Under the pieces are notes generated by a model. The model was not told the DNA's origin and made no database searches. It saw only the letters and a program-made list of their open reading frames with translations. The position numbers and the translations under genes were made by a program. Positions 3,517 to 7,013 of a DNA stretch of 64,000 nt are shown piece by piece. Source of the DNA: Gammaproteobacteria bacterium (GTDB lineage Bacteria; Pseudomonadota; Gammaproteobacteria; Burkholderiales; Rhodocyclaceae); assembly GCA_018824085.1 (NCBI GenBank), contig JAHJHI010000009.1:62001-126000 (forward strand). The letters are read 5' to 3'. Within the stretch, counting starts at the first letter, position 1. The number at the start of each line of letters is the position of its first letter.

Positions 3517-4821
3517 ATGGACCTGCTCGGCAAGTACCGCATCCAGCGCCTGCTCGGCGAAGGCGCAACGTCCAAGGTGTTCCTCGCGCACGACCCTTTC
3601 GGCAAGCGCGACGTGGCGATCAAGATCGTCGCGCGCGGCAGCGACGAAGGCGGCAAGAGCGAGCGCTTCCAGAAGAAGTTCTTCATCGCGGAAGCATCGC
3701 TTGCCGGCAAGCTGACGCATCCGCACATCGTGCAGATCTACGACGCGGTGGCGGACGCCGACCCGGCCTATCTCGTCATGGAATACGTGCGCGGCGGCAC
3801 GCTGGAACGGCACACGCACCCGGACAAGCTGCTGCCGGTCGGCGACGTGCTGGAGATGGTCTTCAAATGCACGCGCGCGCTGGACTTCGCGTGGCGCCTC
3901 GGCGTCATCCACCGCGATCTGAAACCGGCCAACATCATGCGTACGGAAGAGCCGCGCGCGGACGGGCATCACGCGCCGGGCACCAATGTGAAGGTGTCGG
4001 ACTTCGGTGCGGCGATGTCGGTATCGGCCACGGAAACCCAGGTGTCCGGCGTCGGCTCCCCTGCCTACATGAGCCCTCAGCAGATCAAGGAGCATCCGCT
4101 CAATCACCAGACCGACATCTTCTCGCTCGGCGTCGTCACCTACCAGCTGCTGACCGGTCACCTGCCGTTCCAGGGCAGCAACAACTTCAGCATGATGTAC
4201 CAGATCACCCACGCGGAACCTGTGCCGCCGTCATCGCTGCGCCCGGATCTGCCGCCGGTCATCGACGCCATCGTGATGCGTGCGCTGCAGAAGTCGCTGG
4301 ACGACCGCTACCCGACCTGGGACGCGTTCTCGTTCGACCTGGCCGAAGCGTTCCGCGGCGAATCGCTGCGCGACCACGATCACCGGATCGCCGACAGCGA
4401 AAAATTCAATTCGCTGCGCCGCCTGTCCTTCTTCCAGGAGTTTTCCGACGTCGAGCTGTGGGAGGTCGTGCGCCTCGCCGAATGGCACCGCGTTGCCGGC
4501 GGCCAGATGCTGCTGCGCGAGGGCGAAGCGGGCGACGGCTTCTTCATCATCGCGGACGGCGAAGTGAAGGTGACCAAGGGGCGCAAGCTGCTGAACGTGC
4601 TGTCGGCCGGCGAATGCGTCGGCGAGATGGCCTACCTCACGCCGGCGCAGGGCACCCGTGGAGCGGACGTATCGACACTGAGCGAAGCGGTCGTGATCCA
4701 CCTCGCCAACGCCTCGCTCGAACGCGCGTCCGAAGGCTGCCGGCACCGCTTCGACCGCGCCTTCCTGCGCATTCTGGTGGAACGGCTGGCGCTCGCAAAC
4801 CAGCGCCTGACCGGCGTCTGA
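3517..4821 (+). CDS. Ser/Thr protein kinase fused to a cyclic-nucleotide-binding domain (paralog 1)
   Basis: A 434-residue soluble protein. Residues about 7-280 form a Hanks-type kinase: glycine loop GEGATSK (14-20), ATP-anchoring K36 in VAIK, catalytic HRDLKPAN (132-139), DFG at 162-164, GSPAYMSPQQ and TDIFSLG. All catalytic residues are present. Residues about 305-420 form a cyclic-nucleotide-binding fold with a phosphate-binding-cassette-like stretch carrying the expected Glu (VGEMAYL) and Arg (TRGADV). No membrane segment or PASTA repeat is seen. A loop of about ten residues before the DFG (RADGHHAPGTN) is absent in the paralog. ATG at 3517 was preferred to an in-frame GTG at 3493 because the kinase fold begins immediately after it. 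First gene of a three-gene operon. Substrate and ligand are unknown. Confidence 0.9.
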   Translation: MDLLGKYRIQRLLGEGATSKVFLAHDPFGKRDVAIKIVARGSDEGGKSERFQKKFFIAEASLAGKLTHPHIVQIYDAVADADPAYLVMEYVRGGTLERHTHPDKLLPVGDVLEMVFKCTRALDFAWRLGVIHRDLKPANIMRTEEPRADGHHAPGTNVKVSDFGAAMSVSATETQVSGVGSPAYMSPQQIKEHPLNHQTDIFSLGVVTYQLLTGHLPFQGSNNFSMMYQITHAEPVPPSSLRPDLPPVIDAIVMRALQKSLDDRYPTWDAFSFDLAEAFRGESLRDHDHRIADSEKFNSLRRLSFFQEFSDVELWEVVRLAEWHRVAGGQMLLREGEAGDGFFIIADGEVKVTKGRKLLNVLSAGECVGEMAYLTPAQGTRGADVSTLSEAVVIHLANASLERASEGCRHRFDRAFLRILVERLALANQRLTGV

Positions 4822-4824
4822 CCG

Positions 4825-6141
4825 ATGAACCGCGCGGCGCCCACGCCCGGCGGAACACTCGGCCGCTACCAGCTGCGCCGCATCATCGGGCGCGGCAGCA
4901 CCAGTACCGTCTGGCTGGCCTGGGATCCGTCGGCGCAGAGCGAGGTCGCCATCAAGTACATCGACCCCGACGTACTGAATGACCAGGCGCGCGGCAAGCT
5001 GCACCGCAGCCTGCTGGTGAATGAAGCCTCGCTTGCCGACAAGCTGAAGCATCCGCACATCGTGTCCATCTTCGACGCCGTCATCAGCGACGAAGAGGCC
5101 TACATCGTCATGGAACACGTGGCCGGCGGCACACTCGACGCCCATACGCAACGCCCCTTCCTGCTGCCGGTCGAGCGCATCGTCGAACTCATGTTCAAGT
5201 GCACGCGCGCGCTGGACTATGCGTGCCAGCTCGGCATCACGCACCGCGACATCAAGCCGGCCAACATCCTGCTCACGCGCGAGGGTGACCTCAAGCTCAC
5301 CGACTTCGGCGCGGCGCTGTTCACCGCGAACCAGCGCACCCAGGTCGAAGGCGTCGGCTCCCCCGCCTACATGAGCCCGCAGCAGGTGCGCGAAATGCCG
5401 CTGAACCACCAGACCGACATCTATTCGCTCGGCGTCGTCATCTATCAGCTGCTGGCCGGCGAGCTGCCCTTCCAGGCGAGCAACAACTACAGCCTTGTCT
5501 ACCAGATCATCCACGTCGACCCGCCGCCGCCGTCCGCCCACCGGGCGGGCCTGCCGCCGGCGCTCGACGCCGTGGTCGCCCGCGCGATGCACAAGGACAT
5601 CGCGCTGCGCTATGCCACATGGGGCGAATTCACGCACGACCTCGCACAGGCCTTCCGCAACCGCCGCCTCAAGCCGCGCGACGAAGACAGCAGCGCGACC
5701 GAGTACTTCCGGCTGCTGCGCACGCTCGGTTTCTTCTCCGAATTCAGCGACATCGAGTTGTGGGAAGTAGCGCGTTTCACGCGGCAGGAACGGATTGCCG
5801 CCGGCACCGTGCTGATGAAGGACGGCGAACAGGGCGACCAGCTCTACGTCATCGCCACCGGTGAGCTGGCCGTGCGCAAGTTCGGCCGCACGCTGACCAT
5901 ACTGACGAGCGGCGAGTGCTGTGGCGAAATGTCGGTCGTCGCGCGCCACGGCAAACTGCGCGCGAACGACGTGCAGGCCAACACGGACAGCCTGCTGTTC
6001 GTGATCGACGGCGAACGCATCCGGCGCGCGTCGGAAACCTGCCGCATGCGCTTCTACGAATCCTTCCTGCAGGTGCTCGCGGTCCGGCTGTCGTCGGCCA
6101 ATGCGCGCCTGGCGGACAGCTGGGGCGGCGAGGCATCGTGA
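4825..6141 (+). CDS. Ser/Thr protein kinase fused to a cyclic-nucleotide-binding domain (paralog 2)
   Basis: 438 residues, the same architecture as its upstream neighbour and clearly a tandem duplicate (for example LMFKCTRALDYACQLG against VFKCTRALDFAWRLG). The kinase part has GRGSTST, K44 in VAIK, HRDIKPAN with D142, DFG at 160-162 and GSPAYMSPQQ. The C-terminal cyclic-nucleotide-binding fold runs from about residue 303 and contains CGEMSVV and LRAND at the phosphate-cassette position. It starts 3 bases after the first kinase stops, so the pair is cotranscribed and the products may act on each other. Active-site residues look intact. Function is unknown; a PknB-type signalling role gated by a nucleotide is inference. 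Confidence 0.9.
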   Translation: MNRAAPTPGGTLGRYQLRRIIGRGSTSTVWLAWDPSAQSEVAIKYIDPDVLNDQARGKLHRSLLVNEASLADKLKHPHIVSIFDAVISDEEAYIVMEHVAGGTLDAHTQRPFLLPVERIVELMFKCTRALDYACQLGITHRDIKPANILLTREGDLKLTDFGAALFTANQRTQVEGVGSPAYMSPQQVREMPLNHQTDIYSLGVVIYQLLAGELPFQASNNYSLVYQIIHVDPPPPSAHRAGLPPALDAVVARAMHKDIALRYATWGEFTHDLAQAFRNRRLKPRDEDSSATEYFRLLRTLGFFSEFSDIELWEVARFTRQERIAAGTVLMKDGEQGDQLYVIATGELAVRKFGRTLTILTSGECCGEMSVVARHGKLRANDVQANTDSLLFVIDGERIRRASETCRMRFYESFLQVLAVRLSSANARLADSWGGEAS

Positions 6142-7013
6142 TCGGGGCGCTGGCGGAGCGCATCGCCGGAGACATCGGCTGCAGACTGCTTGACGCGCAC
6201 GAACTGTCCCCGGGACGGACCCGGCGCGCGCTGCGCATGGAAACCGGCGACGGCGCACTCTTCGTCAAGGTCCTGCCAGCCGGCGGGCGCGACATGCTGG
6301 CGGCCGAAGCAGAGGGGCTCACCTTGCTGCGCGCGACCGGCACCTTCCGCGTGCCGTCAGAGCGTGCGCGCGGACACGACGACAGCCACGCCTGGCTGGC
6401 GCTCGAATGGCTGGAGCTGCATCCGGTCACGTCGAACGACGAAGGACGGCGGTTCGGCGACACACTGGCGGCGCTGCACGCGCATCACGGCCCCTGCTAC
6501 GGTCTGGCGCGCGACAACTGGCTCGGCGACAGCCCGCAGGAAAACGGGTGCGCGGAATCATGGCCGCTGTTCTACGCGCACAAGCGCTTGCGGCCGCAAC
6601 TCGAGCGCGCGCATCTGAGCGGCTATCGAGGGGCGCTCATCGCCGACGTACATGCCATCATCGAACGCGTCGCCGCCCTTTTCCTGGACTACCGCCCTGC
6701 CGCGTCGCTGCTGCACGGCGACCTGTGGCACGGCAACGCCGGCATCGACGACGCCGGCCGTCCGGCGATATTCGACCCGGCCGTGCATTACGGCGACCGA
6801 GAAGCCGATTTCGCGATGGCCGAACTGTTCGGGGGGTTTCCGGTATCGATGTACGCCGCCTATCAGCGCAGCGCGCCGCTGCACCACAACGCACCGGCAC
6901 GACGCGGCCTCTATCGTCTGCACCACCTGCTGAATCACTACAACCTGTTCGGCGCGTCCTACCTTCGGGAGGCCGAACGCACCGCAGCACGGTTGCTCGC
7001 GGAGCTGCGCTGA
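6138..7013 (+). CDS. Fructosamine kinase family protein
   Basis: A 291-residue member of the fructosamine/ketosamine-3-kinase family (aminoglycoside-phosphotransferase fold). Family members phosphorylate sugar adducts on lysines, which makes them fall off and so repairs glycated proteins. Seen here: RDNWLGDSPQ in the middle, the catalytic LLHGDLWHGN, the metal-binding IFDPAVHYGDREAD, and LHHLLNHYNLFG near the end. The GTG start at 6138 overlaps the kinase stop codon as GTGA, so it is translationally coupled to the two protein kinases. Such coupling suggests a shared pathway but the link is inference. Confidence 0.88.
   Translation: MIGALAERIAGDIGCRLLDAHELSPGRTRRALRMETGDGALFVKVLPAGGRDMLAAEAEGLTLLRATGTFRVPSERARGHDDSHAWLALEWLELHPVTSNDEGRRFGDTLAALHAHHGPCYGLARDNWLGDSPQENGCAESWPLFYAHKRLRPQLERAHLSGYRGALIADVHAIIERVAALFLDYRPAASLLHGDLWHGNAGIDDAGRPAIFDPAVHYGDREADFAMAELFGGFPVSMYAAYQRSAPLHHNAPARRGLYRLHHLLNHYNLFGASYLREAERTAARLLAELR

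Follow-up and report, generated by a model that had tools for sequence, protein, structure and literature searches.

Tandem Hanks-type kinases with C-terminal cyclic-nucleotide-binding domains downstream of argH in Rhodocyclaceae: a candidate second-messenger-gated kinase pair

The DNA analysed here (the window, meaning the whole stretch of 64,000 nucleotides) originates from a water-dwelling member of the Rhodocyclaceae (Gammaproteobacteria; Burkholderiales) and covers positions 62,001 to 126,000 of contig JAHJHI010000009.1, forward strand, from an assembly (GCA_018824085.1) of 4.28 Mb in 56 contigs; its closest named relatives are Methyloversatilis. Downstream of argH, it carries two paralogous Hanks-type Ser/Thr kinase genes, K1 and K2, each ending in a cyclic-nucleotide-binding domain, followed by a gene of the fructosamine-3-kinase (FN3K) family. 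With moderate confidence, we consider K1 and K2 to be soluble cyclic-nucleotide-gated Ser/Thr kinases that act as a pair and are expressed in the argH transcript, the FN3K gene being separate from them. In this scheme, the C-terminal CRP/PKA-type domain would bind a cyclic nucleotide, most likely cyclic AMP (cAMP), made by class III cyclases, and binding would switch the kinase activity, which would make these proteins analogues of the cyclic-nucleotide-dependent kinases, with the sensor placed after the kinase. K1 would probably work together with K2 in this family, as a hetero-pair or in a two-step relay, whose genes ride in the argH transcript, and the downstream FN3K gene would be a protein-repair (ketosamine kinase) gene that shares the position. 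The single transcript, the ligand, the gating, the pairing and the substrates are what we infer, from the observations below. In bacteria, the chief known role of cAMP is that of binding to transcription factors. If the proposal is true, bacteria would have a second-messenger kinase pathway of the PKA/PKG kind, and K1 and K2 may, judging from their domains, be bacterial counterparts of the human cyclic-nucleotide-dependent kinases.

K1 (3517..4821, + strand, ATG start, 434 residues) and K2 (4825..6141, + strand, ATG start, 438 residues) are 49% identical over 428 columns. Pfam finds a kinase domain in both (Pkinase, 2.9e-47 in K1 and 1e-48 in K2), at residues 7-264 of K1 (3535..4308; PF00069 at 7-233, PF07714 at 9-264) and 15-260 of K2 (4867..5604). 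Each of these domains holds the VAIK lysine, HRD, KPAN and DFG motifs, thus the catalytic Lys, HRD Asp, Asn and DFG Asp that characterize Hanks-type kinases. All 127 aligned rows (among which K1 of the window counts twice) keep the four catalytic residues, and 126 of them have the activation-loop Thr174, the remaining row having Ser. K1 and K2 are, therefore, most likely active PknB-like Ser/Thr kinases, as far as can be predicted from such motifs. The kinase domains resemble those of the mycobacterial PknB-type Hanks kinases in both sequence and fold, which supply the best PDB and Foldseek matches: in a Foldseek search with the AlphaFold model of K1 (mean predicted local distance difference test score, pLDDT, 85.3; predicted template modelling score, pTM, 0.63), the best 50 matches listed are all kinases, with PknB kinase domains first.

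In contrast to PknB, the C-terminal part of K1 and K2 is a cyclic-nucleotide-binding domain, and no PASTA domain was found among their Pfam matches. The cut-off of the model for PASTA kinases (PknB/Stk1, NF033483) is 450 bits; K1 and K2 reach 249 and 252, in matches confined to the kinase part. The first-pass annotation, made from the sequence of the window and its open reading frames, had also described a pair lacking PASTA parts, and in this respect it holds. No membrane domain is present among the Pfam matches either (no dedicated transmembrane prediction was made), and the kinases are called cytosolic, or soluble, on that account. An assignment to the PD-T4-6 anti-phage kinases was also considered and rejected: the PADLOC matches listed (25 of 38 families per kinase) end by residue 327 in K1 and 298 in K2, and thus leave the sensor domain uncovered. 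The anti-phage reading is further disfavoured by the chromosomal argH neighbourhood of the gene in many relatives.

The sensor domain lies at residues 325-403 of K1 (4489..4725; PF00027, cNMP_binding, 9.7e-15) and 322-402 of K2 (5788..6030; 1.6e-13). The domain positions given by Pfam bear out the earlier remark that the order, kinase first and sensor last, is the reverse of that of eukaryotic PKG. The solved sequences nearest to the K1 sensor are those of PKG, then of the PKA regulatory subunits; the match to the whole PKG chain reaches 2.7e-18, a sum over four repeats, of which the best single one gives 9e-6. As in PKG, kinase and cyclic-nucleotide-binding domain are fused in one chain, and the Glu and Arg of the cassette are conserved. 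Unlike in PKG and PKA, the sensor of K1 and K2 is single and C-terminal rather than N-terminal to the kinase, the kinase domain is PknB-like, and the gating is putative.

Within the K1 sensor, residues 363-388 (4603..4680; pattern GEC-x-GEM ... R-x-A-D-V, and alignments) form what we take to be the phosphate-binding cassette, with its Glu and Arg presumably in their customary role. Glu370 is found in 97/97 and Arg381 in 96/97 argH-linked rows (12 K1, 12 K2, 56 single kinases and 17 from outside the family), the exception, G086, having its Arg one residue further on. An earlier set of 141 rows, rich in Methyloversatilis, had both residues in every row. The family's share of the cassette alignment and of the kinase tree derives from 82 extracted kinases, one of which, below 380 residues, entered neither; a second, distant paralogue of G023, which lies over 10 kb off in the fetched stretch and is not a tandem copy, was excluded from the alignment, and the broken copy of L062, in two pieces, from the rows. 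Hand-picked rows from elsewhere than the family's argH loci were added (46 in the alignment, 39 in the tree). The conservation of Glu370 and Arg381 and the proximity to PKG and PKA regulatory domains support the claim of the first-pass annotation that the domain is a nucleotide sensor, which, on this sequence basis, likely binds a nucleotide.

A CRP-like domain may also have lost its sensing function and serve for dimerization or docking of an otherwise active kinase. Examples of CRP-like domains that have no nucleotide ligand are known, which counts for this alternative, as do the paralogues linked to grpE, whose cassettes are eroded (Glu in 9/9, Arg in only 5/9). Nevertheless, Glu and Arg are nearly invariant in the argH-linked members, and the kinases co-occur with cyclases (see below), so that we consider a loss of sensing unlikely here. 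In 20 other paralogues, Glu is present in 19 and Arg in all 20.

No description of this kinase family was found in the literature searched, which covers few subscription papers. A word search for the phrase 'cyclic nucleotide' gave no hit in the main text of a 2005 domain survey (PMC1262709), a 2007 study of the microbial kinome (PMC1821047), a 2010 classification (PMC2877116) and a 2018 review (PMC6213207). According to a passage of PMC11032199, some Ser/Thr kinases of Planctomycetota apparently carry a cyclic nucleotide-binding domain; the combination is, therefore, not unknown in bacteria, although these proteins belong to another phylum and are likened to K1 and K2 by description only.

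Another line of evidence is the distribution of the putative source of the ligand. Class III cyclases (PF00211) are encoded in 100 of the 111 family genomes. In tests not corrected for relatedness, a cyclase was found in 70/71 genomes that match the kinase at E <= 1e-112 (in a few of which the kinase lies away from argH), against 30/40 without a kinase (p = 1.3e-4); among genomes of at most 2.8 Mb, these proportions were 13/13 and 6/15 (p = 8e-4), and the kinase-cyclase link persisted when genome size was taken into account (p = 4e-4). With FN3K as a control in the same family genomes, the corresponding comparison was null (48/53 versus 52/58, p = 1). Among 61 relatives, thirteen of them from the same genus, and counting any match to the kinase at E <= 1e-80, cyclases were found in 41/42 genomes with a kinase and 13/19 without (p = 0.003). 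The combination of an intact cassette and a statistical tie to cyclases would bring the question of PKA/PKG-like, cyclic-nucleotide-dependent protein phosphorylation in bacteria within reach of a direct test. As to positions, four genomes (G013:C39:91571, G104:C1:3146401, G073:C16:274712 and G099:C27:20883) have a class III cyclase gene some 3.5 to 5 kb past the argH-kinase locus; on the argH tree, all four belong to a single clade of five rows. At another locus, a hemerythrin-domain cyclase is found about 2 kb from a paralogue of the kinases with a cyclic-nucleotide-binding domain (L167:2988-4406 and 6520-7776).

Conservation of the locus was examined at several depths. Within the genus, the order K1-K2-FN3K is kept in 13/13 genomes (the window's own counted), which excludes a chance arrangement. 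Averaged over nine tandem loci of named records, identity to the window in the best aligned segment is 88.5% for ArgH, 88.6% for K1, 85.9% for K2 and 68.2% for FN3K; within the genus, the two kinases show about the same constraint as ArgH, and FN3K does not. A search with K1 yielded 74 loci, 64 of which (L001-L064) match along most of K1, one of them (L062) in two pieces, the other ten (L065-L074) matching at most its kinase part. Tandems make up nine of the 64, and the remaining argH-adjoining ones carry a single kinase. At the scale of the phylum, matches at E <= 1e-75 occur in 5 of 398 sampled genomes, four in the same order (again counting the window's own) and one in the same class. Other subfamilies of kinases with a cyclic-nucleotide-binding domain adjoin grpE-dnaK-dnaJ, an M48 peptidase gene or a hydantoinase gene.

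In a kinase tree of 120 rows, the 12 first copies of the family's tandems are united in a single clade (support 100); the second copies, also 12, group with the family's single kinases (support 99). By identity, all 12 first copies are K1-like, as is none of the 56 single kinases compared in the family; the K1 type thus occurs in 12 family genomes, every time beside K2. The clades and the typing of the copies indicate that the K1/K2 duplication is old. On a more tentative note, this may be a group of Burkholderiales cyclic-nucleotide-dependent kinases with a reversed PKG layout, in which the anciently diverged K1 and K2, with their differing cassettes, pair to read the output of cyclases.

The family survey, in which 111 genomes of the family, taken from a larger group, were searched with K1, FN3K and ArgH and adjacent matches were chained, gives the range of arrangements. 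The 107 genomes with argH comprise 42 with argH-K, 24 with argH alone, 15 with argH-K-FN3K (including G138, read from a split contig), 14 with argH-FN3K, 11 with argH-K-K-FN3K and one with argH-K-K; for argH alone and argH-FN3K, the fetched loci were checked directly. A kinase directly follows argH in 69 of the 107. Such variety would be expected if the site after argH simply gathered unrelated genes, the tandem having no joint role. This view of the locus as positional baggage appears doubtful to us, given that the conservation of K1 within the genus matches that of ArgH and that K1 is never seen without K2 in the family.

The first-pass annotation had coupled the kinase pair to the FN3K-family protein, a proposal under which the three genes would be one unit joining protein phosphorylation to deglycation, with FN3K as a substrate or effector. 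The genus-wide order speaks for it, as do the presence of FN3K at 11/12 family tandems and the 4-base overlap of K2 and FN3K in the window. The wider survey does not: FN3K follows argH in 26/69 genomes with a kinase there and 14/38 without (Fisher p = 1), or 26/69 and 14/36 (p = 1) without the contig-edge genomes G082 and G085. Taken anywhere in the genome, FN3K is found in 35/68 genomes with a kinase at argH and 18/39 without (p = 0.69; counted before the reassignment of G138). In G016, the space between argH and FN3K holds a kinase relic of 33 residues (L210 4883-4981) that shares 70% identity with residues 399-431 of K2, which indicates that the kinase was lost there and FN3K retained. One tandem (G034) has no FN3K match at E <= 1e-20. 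On the argH tree, the minimum number of changes is 19 for FN3K and 21 for the kinase, with no parallel trend, although only 6 independent pairs are on well-supported branches. FN3K is equally frequent with and without a kinase and is kept beside the relic, and is therefore a neighbour of argH in its own right, which we judge to be independent of the kinases.

A functional unit of kinases and FN3K was, therefore, rejected as the principal interpretation, on the family survey and the G016 relic, and we regard it as improbable; the null FN3K-cyclase control and the faster divergence of FN3K in the genus point the same way. The kinase-kinase-FN3K order, whose survey the annotation had proposed, stands in the genus and at nearly all tandems, and is largely not kept outside the genus (11/107 family argH loci, of which three belong to the genus of the window); the annotation had named such a lack of conservation in relatives as grounds against its proposal. 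Around single argH-linked kinases in the K1 search, FN3K follows in 14 of 35 loci with at least 1 kb of room, by a hand count that includes L013 (whose contig ends before argH); L027, L034 and L036 have no such room. A caution follows from this case, since gene overlap and perfect conservation in a genus failed as signs of coupling in a family-wide test.

The FN3K-family gene (6138..7013, + strand, GTG start, 291 residues; Pfam Fructosamin_kin, 1.7e-79) encodes a protein that aligns overall to solved fructosamine-3-kinases (plant 6oid, human 9cx8) and shares their HGDLW motif, which places it in this family. The plant enzyme has a redox Cys near its P-loop; residues 16-40 of the window's protein, near the P-loop, contain no Cys. 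In contrast to the human enzyme, the place of Phe244 is taken by Ala, as in plant ribulosamine kinase (by residue count on the alignment), which weakly suggests a ribulosamine-type enzyme. According to PMC13223202, Phe244 is a determinant of fructosamine activity in ancestral enzymes, and is insufficient alone in the human enzyme. In an FN3K tree of 55 rows, loci with and without a kinase are intermixed, a pattern that fits an old argH-FN3K neighbourhood with losses or gains of the kinase.

The argH gene (2014..3417, + strand; Pfam Lyase_1 2.3e-79, ASL_C2 8e-28), encoding argininosuccinate lyase, would be the head of the transcript; its start was chosen as the first Met ahead of the conserved part. 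It lies directly 5' of K1 on the same strand, 99 bases away, and was absent from the first-pass annotation. The latter's description of two paralogous Hanks kinases followed by an overlapping FN3K-family gene is confirmed by gene coordinates, Pfam and the identity of K1 and K2: three bases separate the K1 stop from the K2 start, and the K2 stop and FN3K start share GTGA. In a consensus scan of 1800-7400, no terminator-like site is listed on the + strand from 2111 to 7061, and the sole promoter-like site, at 7141, lies ahead of a phasin gene. Both strands together gave six terminator-like sites, where shuffled sequence would lead one to expect 3.6; one is a weak stem 3' of FN3K (7062..7079, + strand), seen in the consensus scan only. 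A single argH-K1-K2-FN3K transcript is, therefore, likely.

Several observations weigh against reading K1 and K2 as a cAMP-gated pair. The first concerns the ligand. Most argH-linked rows have Asp at cassette position 384, where PKA and CRP have other residues, so that the ligand may not be cAMP. A ligand other than cAMP or cGMP, for instance a different cyclic nucleotide or, as in trypanosome PKA, a nucleoside, seems to us rather unlikely. The cassette Glu and Arg are retained in the K1/K2 family, whereas those of trypanosome PKA are reportedly altered. In favour of such a ligand are two family-specific residues of the cassette, Cys367 and Asp384, and the precedent of the trypanosome enzyme (PMC6440977). 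As for gating, the pTM of 0.63 makes the contacts between kinase and sensor in the K1 model unreliable.

The cyclase association, moreover, rests on 11 cyclase-free genomes, since cyclases are near-universal in the family, and phylogenetic pairing of kinase and cyclase leaves few independent pairs (4 to 7). One genome, G137, has a kinase with an intact cassette and no class III cyclase found; it is the sole such case, and its cassette being intact, it was ruled out as an exception that fits the rule. Regarding the pairing, single argH-linked kinases outside the family are closer to K1 than to K2, except L042, and form a third branch of the kinase tree that is not firmly placed with either; K1-like kinases may thus stand and work alone outside the family. 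The separation of FN3K from the kinases also meets a counter-example at the tandems, where FN3K is present at 11/12 loci against 15/57 single-kinase loci (p = 4e-5); these tandems span 7 genera, with 3 independent tandem/FN3K pairs on well-supported branches and 7 on all. There may, hence, be a real kinase-FN3K link restricted to tandems.

Some further features were recorded. The window's own genome holds a third paralogue with kinase and cyclic-nucleotide-binding domains (L166:9299-10579; C20:56301-57578 of that genome), divergent beside grpE-dnaK-dnaJ and near hrcA and a ferrochelatase gene. Four metagenome bins titled Bordetella parapertussis (L013, L019, L050 and L058) carry these kinase genes, and their titles look like mislabels. 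Further downstream in the window, an open frame of 1374 residues (8972-13096), with no Pfam match at E <= 0.001, lies between a gene with a MoCF_biosynth domain and ubiD. Upstream of argH, the - strand of positions 143-1800 carries genes for a LytTR response regulator and a His_kinase protein, which we take to be AlgR/AlgZ-like, and relatives of this pair adjoin argH in many of the fetched loci.

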